Source: a virus | Reading direction: 5' to 3' (one strand) | IMG/VR virus record: IMGVR_UViG_3300010354_000524 | Location: 1 to 26,677 of that record | Length of the DNA stretch: 26,677 bases | Part shown: one piece after another, positions 2,990 through 23,853 of the stretch | Position numbering within the stretch: the first letter of the stretch is position 1 | Layout: every line of letters begins with the position of its first letter | The notes under the pieces: generated by a model | Told to the model about the DNA's origin: nothing | What the model saw: only the letters and a program-made list of their open reading frames with translations | Database searches by the model: none | Translations under genes and position numbers: made by a program

Positions 2990-3352
2990 ATGTATCGAGT
3001 ACGCTTCCACCTTGCAGCCGGTGAACACTACCGCCACTGGCAAGTCCGCGGCCCGTCGGGCACGGTGACCTACCACGAGCCCTCCGAGGTCTCGCTGACC
3101 CTCCGCGGGTGCCGTCTGGTCGTCCGCCCTGGTGCGGCGGCCCGCGTCTACGCTGCCGGTGTCAAAGACGTCTGCGGGTGGATCGAGTGCGAGTCGGTCA
3201 CCGTCACGCCGCCGCTCCTCCCCTTCGGGGCGTCGGTCCGATTCAACCCGATCGAGAGCGTCCACTGGTACGTGGGCTTCGAGGTTGCCGACGGGCTCAG
3301 TGTCGGCGAGTTGATCACGACCGGCCGCGAAGTCATTGCACCCCCCCAATGA
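2990..3352 (+). CDS. Conserved-looking hypothetical protein (120 aa)
   Basis: Unidentified 120-aa beta-rich protein starting MYRVRFHLAAGEHYRHWQVR. It contains WIECESVTVTPP and, near the end, RFNPIESVHWYVG and SVGELITTGREVI. The regular alternation of strands suggests a small beta-barrel or sandwich, probably cytosolic. The ATG follows CACAGGAG with 8-nt spacing. No promoter is visible between the 2905 hairpin and the start, so read-through from the 2170 promoter is likely. Its stop codon lies within the first inverted repeat of the next G/C hairpin array. Confidence 0.8.
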   Translation: MYRVRFHLAAGEHYRHWQVRGPSGTVTYHEPSEVSLTLRGCRLVVRPGAAARVYAAGVKDVCGWIECESVTVTPPLLPFGASVRFNPIESVHWYVGFEVADGLSVGELITTGREVIAPPQ

Positions 3353-3477
3353 GGGGTGATACCCCCCCCAGCGAGGGGGTATACCCCCCACCAGGGGGGG
3401 TCCGTCCCTCGCCGGTGGGGGGGTGGGCTCGACCCCCCCCTCGGGATTTTTTTTGCCCCCCCCTCGGGATTTTTTTT
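3341..3477. repeat. G-run/C-run hairpin array ending in two T-tracts (copy 2)
   Basis: Same architecture as 84-298 but shorter: alternating C-runs and G-runs, then GACCCCCCCCTCGGGA with T8 and a second CCCCCCCCTCGGGA with T7-8, then TTGACC. In copy 1 the TTGACC leads into a promoter. Here it leads straight into the start codon of the 3483 gene, with no visible -10 box or ribosome-binding site. Confidence 0.85.
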
Positions 3478-3482
3478 GACCG

Positions 3483-12583: not shown

Positions 12584-12853
12584 TCAGCCATCGGGCCATG
12601 CCGAGCGGAGACGTTCTTCACGCTCCGAGGGGGTCCAGTTGTGGCGGATCTCGGCACACGCCATCCGGATCTGCTCCGGTGACGGCACGTAAATCGGCGG
12701 GTTCTTGCGGCGTTTGAGCCCAATGGACTCGCACGCCTCGAGGAACTCCGCCTCGTTCATGTCGAGGTCGCTGGCAATCTCGTCATTGAGAACGGCCGGG
12801 TCGTTGTAGAACTTCCGGATGATCGCGGCCTCGCCTTCAGTTACCCAGCCCAT
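12584..12853 (-). CDS. HTH-like small protein, paralogue of 16205 (89 aa)
   Basis: N-terminal two-thirds resemble a helix-turn-helix (EGEAAIIRKFYNDPAVLNDE, then FLEACESIGLKRRKNP). The C terminus carries PSPEQIRMACAEIRHNWTPS followed by EREERL, which matches PSPEEIAERCREIQARW in the 16205-16513 product. I associate this C-terminal motif with small planctomycete and phage proteins, from memory. It likely binds DNA, which is inferred from the fold pattern. GGGAGG precedes the ATG, and it overlaps the methyltransferase gene by 17 nt. Confidence 0.75.
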   Translation of the reverse strand: MGWVTEGEAAIIRKFYNDPAVLNDEIASDLDMNEAEFLEACESIGLKRRKNPPIYVPSPEQIRMACAEIRHNWTPSEREERLRSAWPDG

Positions 12854-13439
12854 CAGGCACCTCCCTCACTGCAAAGAGCCAGCAATGGCCCTGGAGTGCG
12901 GCCGCAGGAATGGGGTGCGACACCCGGTAGACGTTGTAGGCTGGGGGGATTCGCTCGAGCACTTCAGTAAACGTGCCGTGGCACTCGATCAGGTAGCACG
13001 TCACATTGTCGGGATACTCAAGGTCCGACTCACCTCCCTCGATGTCCACCTTCACGAAGTCGCACCACGTGTCGATGCACTTCGGGAGCGTCACGACATC
13101 GACCATGTACCTCTCGGCCACACGACCGTGCCCGAACGGGTGGTCTTCCGACAGGCTCGACTGAGCGATGCCGTCACGCTCGTAGAAGCACTGCCAACCC
13201 TCGGTCGCACCGACGGCTTGCCGAAGGACCCGGATGTTCCTCGCGGATGAGAACCGCGAGGCCAAGCCGGAGACGAGACGCTCGTCTGGCTCGTAGGCGA
13301 CGATGCAGTCGAAGTCGTCTTTCAATAACGCCGACCAGTCGCCCCTGTTTGCACCGACGTCGATCATAGTAGAGCGGTCGGGGCGTGCGAGTTTCCGCAC
13401 CTCCTCGACAAACGGCATCAGCCACGTTTCCTCAATCAT
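12837..13439 (-). CDS. FkbM-family SAM methyltransferase (200 aa)
   Basis: Motif I MIDVGANRGDWSALL (25-39) binds S-adenosylmethionine; the acidic YEPDERL (49-55) follows; FVKVDIEGGESDLE (128-141) is the FkbM-family hallmark. FkbM enzymes usually O-methylate small molecules or sugars. Together with the glycosyltransferase at 8047 it could modify a glycan, but the genes are in different operons. ATG 13439 is chosen over a longer start because AAGGGG is upstream and the overlap with the previous gene is only 8 nt. Confidence 0.87.
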   Translation of the reverse strand: MIEETWLMPFVEEVRKLARPDRSTMIDVGANRGDWSALLKDDFDCIVAYEPDERLVSGLASRFSSARNIRVLRQAVGATEGWQCFYERDGIAQSSLSEDHPFGHGRVAERYMVDVVTLPKCIDTWCDFVKVDIEGGESDLEYPDNVTCYLIECHGTFTEVLERIPPAYNVYRVSHPIPAAALQGHCWLFAVREVPDGLGN

Positions 13440-16990: not shown

Positions 16991-18595
16991 TCAGAAGTAC
17001 TCCTTTCCGTTGTGGACCGTCTTCCCGTTCCTGGCCAGCACGAGGTTCGTCTTCGCCCGAGACATCGCCACGTAGGCAATGCGGGCCTCCTCGTCGCGGG
17101 CATCTCGGTGGTCGGGCGTGTTGTACGAGGTGGCCTTTGTGATCAGGGCCGAGGACTCGGTGTTGACGAACACGTTGTCGGCCTCCATGCCCTTCGCACC
17201 GTGGATTGTGGACACTTGGACGCGTGCGAAGGAAGCGTACTCGGCCCCGTACTTCTTCCGGGTGTCGTTCCACCGCTGGAAGCCCGGAGTGTCGTCGAGC
17301 AACTCCTCCCACCGGCCGCCGCGGATAGCCTCGCAGCCACGCTCCGACACGCCAGCCTGCTCGAGCCACTGCGGGTGGATCAGGTCGAGGTGGTCGAAGT
17401 CCCCGTTGGCCCATCGCTTCCTCGAGTCACGCTTCAGCACCTTCCGCTGGGGCATGCTCTCGATCGCTCGCTTGAAGAGGTCGCCCTCGACAGGCTTTCC
17501 GTTGGACAGTTGGTGGATTGCGTAGAAGGCATCGCGGCGGGATTGCAGCGGCGTCTCCTTGCGAGCGTCGGTCCAGGGGATCGAGGCCGCGTCGAGAGCC
17601 TTGATGATCGTCCGCAGCCCCTCGTCGGTGCGGGCCAAGGCGAGGCAGGACCCCTCGAGTTTCGCGAACTCGGGGATGCCCTGTTGGATCGACAGTGCCC
17701 GGCGGACGGTGCCACCCTCGTCGGCAGGGGCCACGTGGTGGTCTACCCAATCGGAGGTGCTGTGGAGAGGCCGGAGAGCACGCTCCCAGACAGCCCGACG
17801 GCACCGCCACGACTTCGGGAGAACAGTCTCTTCGGTCACGCCCTCCCAGTCCCGAAAGAACTTCGGTGACGAGCCGACCCACCCGAAAATACTCTGGTTC
17901 CAGTCCCCGGCCACGATCACCCGCGGGACGCCCTCTTGGAGCCTCTGTTGCACCCGGTAGACCAGGGCCGAGGCATCCTGGGCCTCGTCGACGATCACCA
18001 TCTTCAGGCCGCGTGGTGGCTCCCCATGGGCGAAGGCTTTCTGCCACGTGCCGTCCCGGTTCCAGGTGATGCCGGCGAACTTACCCAGGATGTCGGTGTG
18101 GTCGAGGAGCCCCCCCCGCTGCTTGGCGAGTTCGTACTGCTCGACCACGTAGCCGGCCATCGTCCGCAGACGCTCGCCGACAGGCATGAGGACCTTCTTC
18201 ATCATGTGCCTGAAGGGGACGTTGGCCGACCTCGCAGCCGCCCAGGCACCGATCACGGCGTCGAGCCCCGGCTCCTTCGTCACGAGGCCGACACCGACCT
18301 GCTTGAGCATCAGGTCCCGGATGCCGATCTCGTCGAGCGGGGCGAACGTCTTGTCGGACTGGATCGCCCTCCAAGCCATCGAGTGGGCGGTGCGAAAGTA
18401 TCCCCGACGCTCCAGCCACCAGGCATTGACGCCGAGGTGCGGGGCGGCCCGCTTGCAGAGGATCGCCCTGGCGGCCCTCGTGAACGAGGTCACCGCGATC
18501 TCCTCAGGCCCGAGGCCCGAGGTCGCGATCCGGTCGATGATGGCCGTGGTCTTGCCGGCTCCGGCGTACCCGATGATTCGCTCAATGCGTTGCAT
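16991..18595 (-). CDS. UvrD/Rep-like SF1 DNA helicase (534 aa)
   Basis: All SF1A motifs are visible in order: Walker A GYAGAGKTT (9-17), motif Ia VTSFTRAA (35-42), DEAQD (203-207), motif III GDWNQSIFGW (230-239), motif IV SWRCRR (262-267), motif V STIHGAKGMEAD (near 462-473) and motif VI YVAMSRAKT (near 508-516). It is an ATP-driven 3'-5' translocase, shorter than cellular UvrD (~720 aa) but normal for phage versions. It likely unwinds DNA in replication or recombination with the downstream nucleases. The start overlaps the stop of a 56-aa leader gene (TAATG). Confidence 0.94.
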   Translation of the reverse strand: MQRIERIIGYAGAGKTTAIIDRIATSGLGPEEIAVTSFTRAARAILCKRAAPHLGVNAWWLERRGYFRTAHSMAWRAIQSDKTFAPLDEIGIRDLMLKQVGVGLVTKEPGLDAVIGAWAAARSANVPFRHMMKKVLMPVGERLRTMAGYVVEQYELAKQRGGLLDHTDILGKFAGITWNRDGTWQKAFAHGEPPRGLKMVIVDEAQDASALVYRVQQRLQEGVPRVIVAGDWNQSIFGWVGSSPKFFRDWEGVTEETVLPKSWRCRRAVWERALRPLHSTSDWVDHHVAPADEGGTVRRALSIQQGIPEFAKLEGSCLALARTDEGLRTIIKALDAASIPWTDARKETPLQSRRDAFYAIHQLSNGKPVEGDLFKRAIESMPQRKVLKRDSRKRWANGDFDHLDLIHPQWLEQAGVSERGCEAIRGGRWEELLDDTPGFQRWNDTRKKYGAEYASFARVQVSTIHGAKGMEADNVFVNTESSALITKATSYNTPDHRDARDEEARIAYVAMSRAKTNLVLARNGKTVHNGKEYF

Positions 18596-18765
18596 TAGAA
18601 GGGCACCTCCACATTCTCGAGCCGACGACGCAGTGCGACCAGGTCCGGGGCGGCCTCGTCGACCGGCATCCCGTACTCCTGCATCGACTCGATGTCCTCG
18701 AGCAATGCCGACACGCTCAAGAGCAGCAACCGCAGTTCAGTATCGTCCAGACTGATCGTTTTCAT
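18595..18765 (-). CDS. Small helical protein, first gene of the leftward operon (56 aa)
   Basis: A 56-aa peptide (MKTISLDDTELRLLLLSVSA, then LLEDIESMQEYGMPVDEA), acidic and leucine-rich. CTGGAG lies 8 nt upstream of the ATG, and the stop overlaps the helicase ATG, so helicase translation is likely coupled to it. A promoter lies just upstream (18790-18818). Being first in the operon and next to the repeat-rich control region, it could be a regulatory or helicase-partner peptide; this is inference. Confidence 0.68.
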   Translation of the reverse strand: MKTISLDDTELRLLLLSVSALLEDIESMQEYGMPVDEAAPDLVALRRRLENVEVPF

Positions 18766-18789
18766 GAGAAAGTCTCCAGGGGTTGGCCA

Positions 18790-18818
18790 AGCATACCAAC
18801 GACCGCCCGAGAAGGCAA
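18790..18818 (-). promoter_or_regulatory. Leftward promoter with repeat core in its spacer
   Basis: Minus strand: TTGCCT (18818-18813), 17-bp spacer, TATGCT (18795-18790). The spacer contains GGTCGTTGG (18804-18796), matching the GGTCGTTG core of the tandem repeats on the opposite strand in the same interval. A protein bound to that core would block or modulate this promoter. Confidence 0.65.
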
Positions 18819-18827
18819 GCGGATTTT

Positions 18828-18897
18828 TGTGGTCGTTGTCTCTTATGGATTGTGGTCGTTGTCTCTTATGGATTGTGGTCGTTGTCTATAAGGGAGA
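18828..18897 (+). repeat. Tandem 23-bp repeats (iteron-like)
   Basis: Two exact, directly adjacent 23-bp units (18828-18850, 18851-18873) beginning TGTGGTCGTTGTCT, followed by a third diverged unit (from 18874) that shares the first 14 bases and then reads ATAAGGGAGA. The third unit doubles as the left arm of a 21-bp inverted repeat. Tandem units without spacers and an adjacent A-rich tract fit replication iterons or a multi-site operator. Confidence 0.9.
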
Positions 18898-19035
18898 TCC
18901 GTGGAGGAGAGAAAAAGAAAAAAAATATTTACTGGAGTACATATGGAGTACATATGGAGATTGGTTGGGTCACACGCGAGAGGCACCTCTTTTTACTTTT
19001 CAGTCCTTTCCGGTTCTCCCTTATAGACAACGACC
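18877..19035. repeat. Perfect 21-bp inverted repeat flanking an A/T-rich tract
   Basis: Left arm 18877-18897 (begins GGTCGTTGTCTATAAG) and right arm 19015-19035 are exact reverse complements. Between them lie a purine/A-rich stretch (18903-18930, with AAAAAGAAAAAAAATATTTA) and a tandem direct repeat of GGAGTACATAT (near 18934-18955). The right arm sits about 23 bp before the SNF2-like helicase start and overlaps its likely promoter region. Confidence 0.9.
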
Positions 19036-19057
19036 GGTGACAGGTACACTCGTTCTC

Positions 19058-20389
19058 ATGCCAACACTCTGGAAACACCAACGCCGGCTCGTCGACTGGG
19101 CTCACGCACACCCCCGCTCGTTCTGGGGGGCGGGCATGGGGAGCGGAAAGACCGCGTCGGCCCTGACGCTGGCTCAGGAGTTGAAGGCGACCCTGACGCT
19201 CGTGGGGTGCCCCAAGGCCGTCATCCCGGCCTGGGAGGCCCAGGCTGCCGTCTGGCATCCCAAGGCGAACGTGGTCCGCCTCGACGGCAAGGGGACCGCC
19301 CTGGAGCGTTGCGAGCGTGCCCTCCGGCAGATCGACCGCCGCCGCCAGAACATCCTGGTCGGCAACTACGAGTCGATCTGGCGGATGCCGGCCCTGCTCA
19401 AGATCAACTTCGACCTCCTGGTCTGCGACGAGTGCCACAAACTCAAGGCCCACCGCGGCAAGGCCGCGAAGTTTTTCGCGAAACTCTCCGCGGCCGCCAC
19501 GAAGGTCGTTGGGCTCTCGGGGACGCTCCTCGGCCAGGAGCCGATCGACGCGTTCGGCGTCTACCGAGCCTGCGGGCTTGCCAACCGTTTCCCTCGGACA
19601 CTTGGTGCGTTCCAGCAAAAGTTTTGCGTGATGAATCCGAGGGTTCGCGGATGGGTCATGGGCTACAAGAACCTCGACGAGTTCACCGAGATCATTGCCA
19701 AGGACACCATGCGTATCCGCACCGAGGACGTGATCGATCTCCCCCCGCGGGTCCACACACACCTCCCGGTCGAACTGAGCCACAAGGAAGCCCTGGCCTA
19801 CCAGAACCTCCGCGACGAACTGGTCCACTCCGACGGCACCAAGGCTATCCTGGTTGAGAACAAACTCGTCCTCGTTCTGAGGCTCCTGCAAGCCTGTAGT
19901 GGCCACGTCCGCTGGGATATGTCAGACGCCCCTGAGAAGATCGTCGACGTCCCATCGAAGGCCGCGGCCCTCGCAGACGTCGCTGACGGCATCGACGGCC
20001 CGTTCGTTGTCTTCTACCGCTTCACTGCGGAGTGCGACGACATCAAGGCTGCCCTGAAGGGCAAGAAGGTGGGCGAGTTGTCAGGGAAGTGCAACGACCT
20101 CGCCGCGTTCCAGGGTGGCCTGCTCGACGTGCTGGCGGTGCAGATCGCGGCCGGCGGGACCGGCATCGACCTCACGCGGGCCTCGCACGCCATCTACTAC
20201 TCGGGCTCCCCGAGCCTCACCGACATGGACCAGTCCTACGCCCGTCTCCATCGGCCGGGGGCCGCGGGCACCGTGTTCATCACCCACCTCGTCGCTCGTC
20301 TCCCCTCGAAGCCATCGGTTGACGAACTGCTCTACCGTGGTCTACAATCGAAGGGTGACCTGATCGAATCCATCCTATCGGAGATATGA
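19058..20389 (+). CDS. SNF2-like SF2 DNA helicase (443 aa)
   Basis: Walker A GAGMGSGKT (24-32), DECHKLKAH (124-132), motif III GLSGTLLGQ (152-160), then a helicase C-terminal domain with IAAGGTGIDLTRASHAIYYS and QSYARLHRPG (motifs V and VI). This is a compact phage SNF2 translocase without extra domains. It moves on dsDNA and may displace proteins or remodel forks and junctions. ATG 19058 is chosen because the protein then begins at the expected WKHQRRLVDW segment; the ribosome-binding site is weak. The promoter of the 20391 gene lies in its last codons. Confidence 0.92.
   Translation: MPTLWKHQRRLVDWAHAHPRSFWGAGMGSGKTASALTLAQELKATLTLVGCPKAVIPAWEAQAAVWHPKANVVRLDGKGTALERCERALRQIDRRRQNILVGNYESIWRMPALLKINFDLLVCDECHKLKAHRGKAAKFFAKLSAAATKVVGLSGTLLGQEPIDAFGVYRACGLANRFPRTLGAFQQKFCVMNPRVRGWVMGYKNLDEFTEIIAKDTMRIRTEDVIDLPPRVHTHLPVELSHKEALAYQNLRDELVHSDGTKAILVENKLVLVLRLLQACSGHVRWDMSDAPEKIVDVPSKAAALADVADGIDGPFVVFYRFTAECDDIKAALKGKKVGELSGKCNDLAAFQGGLLDVLAVQIAAGGTGIDLTRASHAIYYSGSPSLTDMDQSYARLHRPGAAGTVFITHLVARLPSKPSVDELLYRGLQSKGDLIESILSEI
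20319..20348 (+). promoter_or_regulatory. Promoter inside the end of the SNF2-like gene
   Basis: TTGACG (20319-20324), 18-bp spacer, TACAAT (20343-20348), about 42 bp before the 20391 start. It fits the genome's pattern of promoters embedded in the preceding gene. Confidence 0.6.
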
Positions 20390-20697: not shown

Positions 20698-21471
20698 ATG
20701 TCCACTGCAATCACGACCGTATCCAAGTTTGAGTTCCTCACCCCTGGCTCGCGTGCCGCTAAGATCGTCGCCTCCAACATTGGCGAAGGTCAGGTATACG
20801 AGAGCGACCTCCCTTCGGTCGGCATGCCTGCCGGCGGTTCAACCCAGTGGTCATACGAAGACGCCTCTGGCAACACCGTAAACTGCGAAGCGATCGAGGG
20901 CATCCTTGTCGCCACCGCAGGCCGCGGGGTTCTGTGGCCGTCGACGGAGCCGTCTGGAAGCCGGCCGCTCCTTGTGTCAAACGACATGCGGACTGGCTAC
21001 CTCGTCGGCGACGACTTCGGCGACGTGAATCCCGCGGACCTGGACAAGTACTTGATTGAAGGCAACAAGTACGATTATGCCGCGATCAGCAACAGCCCTG
21101 AGTTCGGGTTTGGGGCTGGAGGCGGTCGAGGCAAGCGTGTCAAAGAGTCGATGGTGCTGGCTGTTCTCCAGGAAGGGGAAGTGCTGCCAGTGCTCGTGAA
21201 GTTGGGTGGCGGATCGCTTGGTGCCTTCACCAGGTTCCGCAAGGGTCTGAAGGTGCTGCCGCATGAGGCGGTAGTGTCGCTGCGGCTCGAGAAGGTTAGC
21301 AACATGGCTGGGCAGAAGTTTAGCCGCGTGAAGCCTTCGCTCGTCGCGACGCTCAGTGAGGCTGAGGGCGAAGTTGTTCGTGCCCTCTACACTGAGCCGC
21401 TGACCCAGATGTTGACTCGGGTGCCTGGCGGTGCGTCTCCCACCGCGGGTGCCGAGGAGGCTCCGTTCTAA
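20698..21471 (+). CDS. Conserved phage protein, possible ssDNA-binding analogue (257 aa)
   Basis: From memory, resembles a widespread phage replication-region family. Shared features are the start GEGQVYESDLPSVGMPAGGS, a strand block (CEAIEGILVATAGRGVLWPS), GKRVKESMVLAVLQEGEVLP, a GSLGAFTRFRKGL segment and VSLRLEKVSNMAGQKFSRVK near the end. That family often has paired cysteines in the middle; here the region (about 128-148) reads NKYDYAAISNSPEFGFGAGG with none. A ssDNA-binding or annealing role is suspected from position only. A strong terminator follows, consistent with high-level monocistronic expression. Confidence 0.78.
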   Translation: MSTAITTVSKFEFLTPGSRAAKIVASNIGEGQVYESDLPSVGMPAGGSTQWSYEDASGNTVNCEAIEGILVATAGRGVLWPSTEPSGSRPLLVSNDMRTGYLVGDDFGDVNPADLDKYLIEGNKYDYAAISNSPEFGFGAGGGRGKRVKESMVLAVLQEGEVLPVLVKLGGGSLGAFTRFRKGLKVLPHEAVVSLRLEKVSNMAGQKFSRVKPSLVATLSEAEGEVVRALYTEPLTQMLTRVPGGASPTAGAEEAPF

Positions 21472-22081: not shown

Positions 22082-22231
22082 ATGACTGAGACGATTGAAA
22101 CCCTGCGACTGCAACTCAGGATGGCCCGCGAGCGTGAGAAGATGGCCCAGGATGCCGCCCGCGTCGCCATTGCTGAGAAGGCCGCCGCGATCGCTGAACT
22201 GGAGAGACTCAAAGAGGAGGCCCGACGATGA
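22082..22231 (+). CDS. Short coiled-coil protein (49 aa)
   Basis: A 49-aa all-helical peptide (MTETIETLRLQLRMAREREK, then VAIAEKAAAIAELERLKEEA) with heptad-like leucine and alanine spacing throughout. AAAGGAG lies 7 nt upstream of the ATG, just after a clear promoter, and its stop overlaps the PrimPol start (ATGA). Coupled expression suggests a PrimPol partner or a leader gene that sets PrimPol translation. Confidence 0.72.
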   Translation: MTETIETLRLQLRMAREREKMAQDAARVAIAEKAAAIAELERLKEEARR

Positions 22232-23853
22232 GAGACTGGCTGTTCAAGGAGGCTGCGAAACTCGCTGCCCGCAATATCCCCGTGGTGGTCGTCCACGGCA
22301 TCACTGACGACAACAAGTGCTCGTGTGGGCGGCCGTCCTGCACCGGCGGCTCCCGCGGGAAGCACCCAGTAGCCCTCGGCTGGCAGGATCACGCCACGAC
22401 CGACGAGGACGAACTGCTTGACCAACTCGACACCGACGCCCCCAGGAACATCGGGATCCTGCTCGGCGACAAGGGTGGCGTGGTCGACATTGAGTTCGAC
22501 GACGCCGAGGGGGCCGAGACGGTCAAGGCTCTCGGCATCGACCGCCACGAGACCCCGACGTACACCTCGGGGAACCGGAGTGTCCACCGGCTCTACCGGT
22601 TCTCTCACAAGTTGCCCGCCAAGGCAGTCGTGAAGTACAAGGGGCTCGAGGTCCGCACGGGCGGTGGCGGCATGTCCGCTCAGTCGATTGTCCCTCCGTC
22701 GGTCCACTACTCAGGCTCGGTCTACGAGTGGGCTCCGGGGCTCTCGATGGAAGACGTCGACCTGATGGAGATCCCGGACGATCTGCTTGCCCTGATCTGC
22801 GAAGGAGATGCCGCTCAGAAGCCCTCAGTGCCCCCTAGAAGGGTCGTTCAGGACGGGGTGGGCGAGGGAGACCGCCACAATGCAATCGTGTCTCTAACGG
22901 CCCGCAAGGCGTTCAGGATGCGAAATCTCCAGAGTGAGTCCGAGTACCAGGACACGCTCGACGAGTTGCTGGCGATCAACCAGGGCCGGTTCAATCCTCC
23001 GCTGCCCGAATCCGAGGTGATCGAGGCGTTCCAGTCGGCCGTGACCTACGCTCGCTCGAAGGCCGAGCCGATCGACCAGGACGACCTGGATGCCGAGGTG
23101 GATGCCTTCAAGGCCGAGGGGTCGAAGGGCGTCTCCGGGCTGGGGCTGGAGCGGAAGTCGGACGGCTGGCACCCCGGCCTCTGGCGGCTCGTCGTGGTCC
23201 ACTCGGAGCCTCCGGTCTACAACCTGATCGTGGCGGTCCCTCAGGGGGACGGCTGGTCGGAGCAGCGTGTCGAGGTCGACCCCGACGCGTTCGAGGTGCC
23301 GAGCAAGGTGGCCCTGGCGATCGAGAAGGCGACGCACCTCGGGGTGGTCATGCCGTCCGAGCCTGGCGAGTGGGCCGTCATGTGGAACGGCAAGAAGGCG
23401 ACGAAGAAAGAGGCGGCGGAGTTGGGCATCAAGGCCCGGCTGAAGGCTCAGAAAGAGGACATGCGTCCGGATCCTGAGACGAGCCGTGACGCGATCGTGG
23501 CGGCCGGCGTGCTCGAGGCCCTGAGCGGGATGGCTGATGCCCCGGTGGGCGTGAAGGCCAGCGAGATTGAGTTGCCGGGCGATCACACGCCGACGTGGAT
23601 CGAGGAGGTCGCCGGCGAGCGTAAACTCGCGGTGGTCTTGACCTCACTGTGGGCCGGCGTGGCAAAGGCCGTTGACAGGCTCACAGACGCCGATAAACGG
23701 CGGTTCCGCCGTCAGGTGGTTGGCTATGCCGGCTGCGACGTCGAGCCCCTCAGGGACCGCTGGGTGCTCCTGACAGAGAAGCACTACGAGGCGATCACGC
23801 TGGTCGCTTTGGGACGCCTGACGAACGGTGGGCGTCTCAACAAGTGGGGGTAA
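22228..23853 (+). CDS. Primase-polymerase (AEP/PrimPol) protein (541 aa)
   Basis: The N-terminal bifunctional primase/polymerase domain (about 1-190) has a Cys cluster CSCGRPSC (31-38), GKHPVALGWQDHAT (45-58), motif I GGVVDIEFDD (83-92, catalytic Asp87 and Glu89), motif II SGNRSVHRLY (114-123, His120) and motif III SAQSIVPPSVHYSG (150-163). A PriCT-like helical part follows (GEGDRHNAIVSLTARKAFRM). The C-terminal ~250 residues are unassigned and contain no Walker A, so unlike many phage PrimPols no helicase is fused; the two separate helicases may serve. It probably primes replication. Terminated by the 23859 hairpin. Confidence 0.92.
   Translation: MRDWLFKEAAKLAARNIPVVVVHGITDDNKCSCGRPSCTGGSRGKHPVALGWQDHATTDEDELLDQLDTDAPRNIGILLGDKGGVVDIEFDDAEGAETVKALGIDRHETPTYTSGNRSVHRLYRFSHKLPAKAVVKYKGLEVRTGGGGMSAQSIVPPSVHYSGSVYEWAPGLSMEDVDLMEIPDDLLALICEGDAAQKPSVPPRRVVQDGVGEGDRHNAIVSLTARKAFRMRNLQSESEYQDTLDELLAINQGRFNPPLPESEVIEAFQSAVTYARSKAEPIDQDDLDAEVDAFKAEGSKGVSGLGLERKSDGWHPGLWRLVVVHSEPPVYNLIVAVPQGDGWSEQRVEVDPDAFEVPSKVALAIEKATHLGVVMPSEPGEWAVMWNGKKATKKEAAELGIKARLKAQKEDMRPDPETSRDAIVAAGVLEALSGMADAPVGVKASEIELPGDHTPTWIEEVAGERKLAVVLTSLWAGVAKAVDRLTDADKRRFRRQVVGYAGCDVEPLRDRWVLLTEKHYEAITLVALGRLTNGGRLNKWG

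Follow-up and report, generated by a model that had tools for sequence, protein, structure and literature searches.

The window analysed here is a complete virus record of 26,677 bases, in which a non-coding repeat stretch is flanked by a leftward series of genes (a 56-codon ORF and a UvrD-type helicase gene) and a rightward series (an SNF2-type helicase gene, p257 and PrimPol). The genes and features concerned are the following.

16991-18595, minus strand: gene for a UvrD-type SF1 helicase, which in relatives follows the element directly
18598-18765, minus strand: 56-codon ORF upstream of UvrD, without family match
18790-18818, minus strand: sigma-70-like promoter TTGCCT-17-TATGCT, fitting the leftward operon
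18797-18804, minus strand: copy of the core word GGTCGTTG, in the promoter spacer of the 56-codon ORF/UvrD operon
18827-18849, plus strand: iteron-like direct repeat 1, TTGTGGTCGTTGTCTCTTATGGA, 23 bp
18850-18872, plus strand: iteron-like direct repeat 2, identical to repeat 1
18873-18895, plus strand: iteron-like direct repeat 3, 87% identical
18877-18922, plus strand: left arm of a long inverted repeat, first 21 bp perfect
18915-18944, no strand: A-rich tract, candidate unwinding element, least stable 30 bp of the contig
18990-19035, minus strand: right arm of the long inverted repeat, outer 21 bp (19015-19035) perfect
19058-20389, plus strand: gene for an SNF2-type SF2 helicase, first gene of the inverted block
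20698-21471, plus strand: p257, a conserved protein of unknown function (phrog_23155)
22228-23853, plus strand: PrimPol (Prim-Pol, PriCT_1 and C-terminal winged-helix-like domain), candidate initiator

An earlier note on this DNA had placed helicase genes on both sides of the segment 18766-19057, as is the case (SNF2 from 19058 on the plus strand, UvrD from 18595 on the minus strand behind the 56-codon ORF), and its description of two exact 23-bp tandem repeats (18827-18849 and 18850-18872) with a diverged third, of a perfect 21-bp inverted pair, GGTCGTTGTCTATAAGGGAGA (18877-18897 and 19015-19035, gap of 117 bp), and of an A-rich stretch proved accurate. The inverted arms reach 46 nt at 83% complementarity, and the A-rich tract is the contig's least stable window at 30, 40, 60 and 100 bp. 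The repeats are real and far above chance, with 26 inverted and 50 direct 8-mer pairs in the 300-bp region versus about 0.8 of each in 500 dinucleotide shuffles (maxima of 10 and 7, respectively). The core word GGTCGTTG has five copies in the segment, at 18797 (minus), 18831, 18854 and 18877 (plus) and 19028 (minus), and seven more scattered through the remaining contig, while the 20-mer of the inverted pair has no third site in the contig at up to three mismatches (0 expected, 100 shuffles). Thus, tandem repeats within the size range typical of iteron origins (about 17-23 bp) adjoin a potential A+T-rich unwinding region, three copies of 23 bp lying next to the least stable DNA. A perfect 21-bp inverted repeat with a 117-bp gap, whose arms are similar over 46 nt, could also delimit a small mobile element or an invertible promoter. 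We regard this as very improbable, since it is present as a single copy in the contig, its exact 20-mer was found in no other viral contig, the window proteins scanned include none recognisable as a recombinase, and the outer word also occurs in tandem outside the arms. Promoters of a T7-like single-subunit RNA polymerase were considered on account of a similar core, CTATAAGGGAGA, and rejected, as the 20-mer occurs only twice, in copies facing each other, and scanning of the window proteins revealed no polymerase of this type. Additionally, an 11-bp tandem repeat, TGGAGTACATA, at 18933-18960 creates two GGAG-5-ATG starts, whose frames of 27 and 28 codons stop just before SNF2 and might encode leader peptides.

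The window has no DNA-level relatives among phage records, and a search for RNA families and tRNAs returned none. The p257 alignment comprises 58 viral loci and one contig that belongs to a Planctomycetia MAG, for which reason the virus is probably a phage with a Planctomycete host, a likely though unproven assignment. All 52 loci that contain SNF2, p257, PrimPol and UvrD carry them in this order on one strand, and an HTH_17-like protein, of which the window has no clear homologue, directly precedes SNF2 in 58 of 59 relatives. In several loci (L032, L038, L051, L074 and L097), insertions of HNH endonuclease-like frames lie beside PrimPol, between it and p257, and the UvrD proteins of L049, L053 and L084 match only from about residue 230, after a sequence that resembles an intein end. 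In the window, UvrD and its followers are opposite in strand to SNF2-p257-PrimPol. The dCMP deaminase and dNMP kinase genes are codirectional with UvrD, and the SNF2-PrimPol block is therefore taken to be the inverted part. Since this block is inverted relative to all 52 relatives, the divergent helicase layout is peculiar to the window contig; further scans for relatives found the same arrangement in no other contig. The other block edge, near 23,850, shares no 11-mer that would point to an inverted repeat able to mediate the inversion. Such an inversion would have placed SNF2, rather than PrimPol, across the window element from UvrD.

In the relatives, the PrimPol-UvrD junction contains direct and inverted copies of a short word up to the UvrD start, which in many loci surround a hairpin (AAGTCNTTG..CAAGGACTT). 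The layout is a direct word, a spacer or hairpin, inverted words, a direct word and the UvrD start. The element occupies one place per locus, always this junction, where inverted 8-mer pairs average 4.3 versus 0.8 in random stretches and 0.9-1.9 upstream of other genes; exact repeats are few in the elements of L045, L061 and L069. The 280 bp before UvrD hold the locus's least stable 60 bp in 14 of 35 loci (0.7 expected), and in all 35 the element ranks sixth or better in instability among about 50 blocks. The window has a matching layout upstream of UvrD and, read toward this gene, presents a direct word (19035), 117 nt, three inverted words (18896-18831), a direct word (18804) and the start codon. 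The words vary among phages (TTTGTGGTCC in L083, TTTGCGGTCC in L029, GTGGACGG in L036, GAAACGTGG in L043), and TTTGTGGTC is common to those of the window and L083. Because the relatives' conserved hairpin (AAGTC..GACTT) was not found in the window, its copy is equated with their element only by position, layout and the TTTGTGGTC shared with L083; the proposed homology rests on position and layout. Downstream of UvrD, L045 also contains repeated AACTTCTGGTCA..TGACCAGAAGTT hairpins (12650-12860).

The genes that accompany the element differ in how closely they follow it. Among 36 non-redundant loci in six element groups (L060 and L084 left out), the nearest neighbour by any part of PrimPol was in the same element group in 36 of 36 cases, a count that is not blind, as the groups had been drawn by eye from the element sequences beforehand. 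The two halves of UvrD gave 34/36 and 33/34, whereas SNF2 and p257 gave 11/36 and 9/36, with about 6 in shuffles. In five pairs of loci (L035/L032, L037/L050, L054/L051, L039/L040 and L048/L043), SNF2 and p257 are near-identical and PrimPol, element and UvrD look unrelated; L035 and L032, for example, share 98% of SNF2 and 99% of p257 but only 24-36% of PrimPol. Likewise, L060 belongs to group A by its element and has a PrimPol end of type A, while the relatives of its SNF2 lie in another group. On these sequence comparisons, the element type tracks PrimPol and UvrD, not SNF2 or p257, and the cassette is one that is swapped between near-identical neighbourhoods. Groups B, E and F have similar UvrD proteins (about 0.7) and distinct PrimPols and elements, which makes PrimPol the tighter partner of the element. 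Against an origin function, linkage alone would predict that an element between PrimPol and UvrD travels with both; it does not predict that the same kind of element is retained in every cassette.

Words that act as sites for a phage regulator, controlling the UvrD operon and in the window also the SNF2 operon, possibly by looping, could likewise produce such arrays. In agreement with an operator region, one word lies in the spacer of the TTGCCT-17-TATGCT promoter, which might also account for the switch-like character suggested in the earlier note. A minus-strand stretch that matches the repeat word over 13 bp (2222-2234) directly precedes the ATG of a different gene (2234-2899), which has a strong promoter, and a 23-bp spacing is compatible with operator arrays. 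Sigma-70-like sites of this kind number 8 in the contig versus 0.6 expected. Strong ones at 299-364, 690-758 and 2170-2234 precede a common leader (AACCAACCCC) and the start of a gene, and the leader of the promoter at 18790 (minus) is similar to theirs. For SNF2, consensus scans revealed no canonical sigma-70 promoter, and no Shine-Dalgarno sequence was read near its ATG. In the relatives, by contrast, the element lies within a codirectional gene series, in which visual inspection of the stretches read revealed no promoter. Moreover, the word follows PrimPol and UvrD and not the HTH protein preceding SNF2, so that an operator word would have to coevolve with one of the former. Maintained complementarity in the hairpins also speaks against operators: in group D, both partners have changed in 7 of 20 hairpin pairs among five related sequences (four close relatives and one more distant; none of 500 shuffles gave this), which is suggestive of kept pairing and, given this relatedness, is not to be read as a probability. 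Paired changes in group A lend weaker support. Overall, we consider control by a regulator possible but less likely than an origin.

Complementarity could alternatively be maintained at the RNA level, if the inverted copies in the PrimPol-UvrD mRNA folded into alternative hairpins that mask or free the ribosome-binding site of UvrD. In group A, the word copy before UvrD can pair with an inverted copy that lies upstream of it (90% of cells paired), and in several relatives the last copy overlaps the ribosome-binding site or start region of UvrD. However, the two strands have almost the same summed predicted folding energy (-1664 and -1599 kcal/mol), and the sense strand has only a small excess of G-U pairs (193 vs 162). 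Furthermore, the window element lies upstream of the leftward promoter, and most of it would therefore be outside the leftward mRNA. An RNA leader thus appears improbable. The folding of the words in sense versus antisense was also tried as a discriminator between RNA and DNA and was dropped as not discriminating.

For a role in replication, PrimPol itself is informative. The window protein contains an archaeo-eukaryotic PrimPol domain (Pfam Prim-Pol, E 4.9e-19), as does the replication protein of pRN1-type origins, and its AlphaFold2 model (pLDDT 83.6) is closest to the solved structure of ORF904 of pRN1 (3m1m, Z 13.1; 1rni, Z 12.8), followed by phage NrS-1 PrimPol (Z 9) and RSF1010 RepB' (Z 6.7). 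The C-terminal domain (375-541), modelled alone (pLDDT 82), matches mostly winged-helix folds at Z 4-5.5, values too low to name a relative, and may in this respect also resemble pRN1. Pfam yielded no helicase family for the PrimPol of the window or for those of two relatives, and no SF3 chain is among the fold matches listed for the model, in which region 300-415 is barely covered. The origin of pRN1 is a stem-loop of about 100 bp that lies downstream of orf904 and whose structure, unlike its sequence, is conserved; it is needed for replication and functional when relocated, and a comparable stem-loop has been reported for phage BIP-1 (PMC4234260). The earlier note had seen no resemblance to a standard annotated phage origin, a statement that this likeness to the stem-loop origin of a PrimPol plasmid qualifies (PMC4234260). 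As in pRN1 and BIP-1, a structured element conserved in structure and not in sequence lies beside the PrimPol gene, and the relatives have a large stem-loop of this kind downstream of a replication gene. Unlike in these systems, the words are repeated in both orientations, the window adds tandem 23-bp copies, UvrD and SNF2 helicases are encoded beside the element, and no SF3 helicase domain is seen in PrimPol, with the above limit on region 300-415. A further difference from pRN1 is the place of the window's inverted arms, which, following the block inversion, are found before SNF2 and 5 kb away from the stop codon of PrimPol.

Other origins share parts of this architecture. In the oriV of RSF1010 (IncQ), iterons and an AT-rich region are accompanied by inverted ssi sites, at which RepB' primes. 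The window likewise has, within a short distance, tandem iterons, an A-rich tract and inverted repeats that face each other, together with a PrimPol that matches RepB' more weakly in structure. This likeness concerns layout. Only three iterons, of 23 bp, are present here, and no RepC- or RepA-like gene was recognised among the proteins scanned. The iterons of phage lambda are located within the O gene, and no O-like protein was recognised here; as in the lambda ori, with its O-protein iterons, and in iteron plasmids, the repeats adjoin an A+T-rich candidate opening region (PMC5043065). In PLE satellites, a RepA_N initiator and an iteron origin, consisting of three semi-palindromic repeats of about 30 bp with experimentally demonstrated function, covary and are swapped as a module (PMC8263062). 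Analogously, the candidate initiator PrimPol varies in step with its cis element and is exchanged together with it, although the initiator is of a different type.

As the element matches both the pRN1 and the PLE patterns, a replication origin is the best explanation, and we favour, with moderate confidence, the segment as the phage's replication-origin element and a candidate site for its own PrimPol. The origin-like character asserted in the earlier note gained support from the comparison, the relatives having at the same position a single-copy, structure-conserved element of low stability that is exchanged with PrimPol and UvrD. The cumulative GC skew proposed as a check gave no support, with extrema away from the element in the window and in four relatives (G004 and G005 among them). 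This is weak evidence, because the relatives' genes are nearly codirectional. The absent skew signal, the promoter overlap, the missing AAGTC..GACTT hairpin in the window, the scarcity of exact repeats in L045, L061 and L069 and, in several relatives, the overlap with the UvrD ribosome-binding site nevertheless count against an origin. If the segment is an origin, PrimPol could bind its own word copies via the C-terminal winged-helix-like domain, upon which the A-rich tract would open, PrimPol would synthesise primers on strands that are exposed or form hairpins, and the bubble might be extended by UvrD, SNF2 or a host helicase. More tentatively, and with slightly less than even confidence, we propose that PrimPol, origin and UvrD form an exchangeable replication-specificity cassette, comparable to plasmid incompatibility groups, in which the architecture stays constant and the word diversifies with PrimPol, and which the inversion rebuilt in the window lineage into a divergent, iteron-bearing origin.

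PrimPol genes occur in phages but, to our knowledge, origins that depend on a phage PrimPol are known in few instances, and what is known of pRN1 and of the counterpart proposed in a phage comes from very few cases. The family of approximately 50 loci, in six element groups, includes cases in which PrimPol and cis element were naturally exchanged against near-identical backgrounds. If this is confirmed, the loci would offer ready matched and mismatched pairs for testing origin recognition by PrimPol and would suggest that selection diversifies phage origins, as in PLE satellites.

Other parts of the window are also rich in repeats. Short tandem arrays with GC-rich palindromes (10-bp AGGGCTCACC units, CCCCC..GGGGG hairpins and CCCCCTCGGGATTTTTTTT units) at 1-304 and 3341-3478 are an alternative candidate place for a structured cis element. 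In the intergenic stretches 620-700 and 1275-1350, passing frames encode nearly the same residues (CPPQDIVV..GATKSC..LTILDH), and the two therefore look like copies of one intergenic module.
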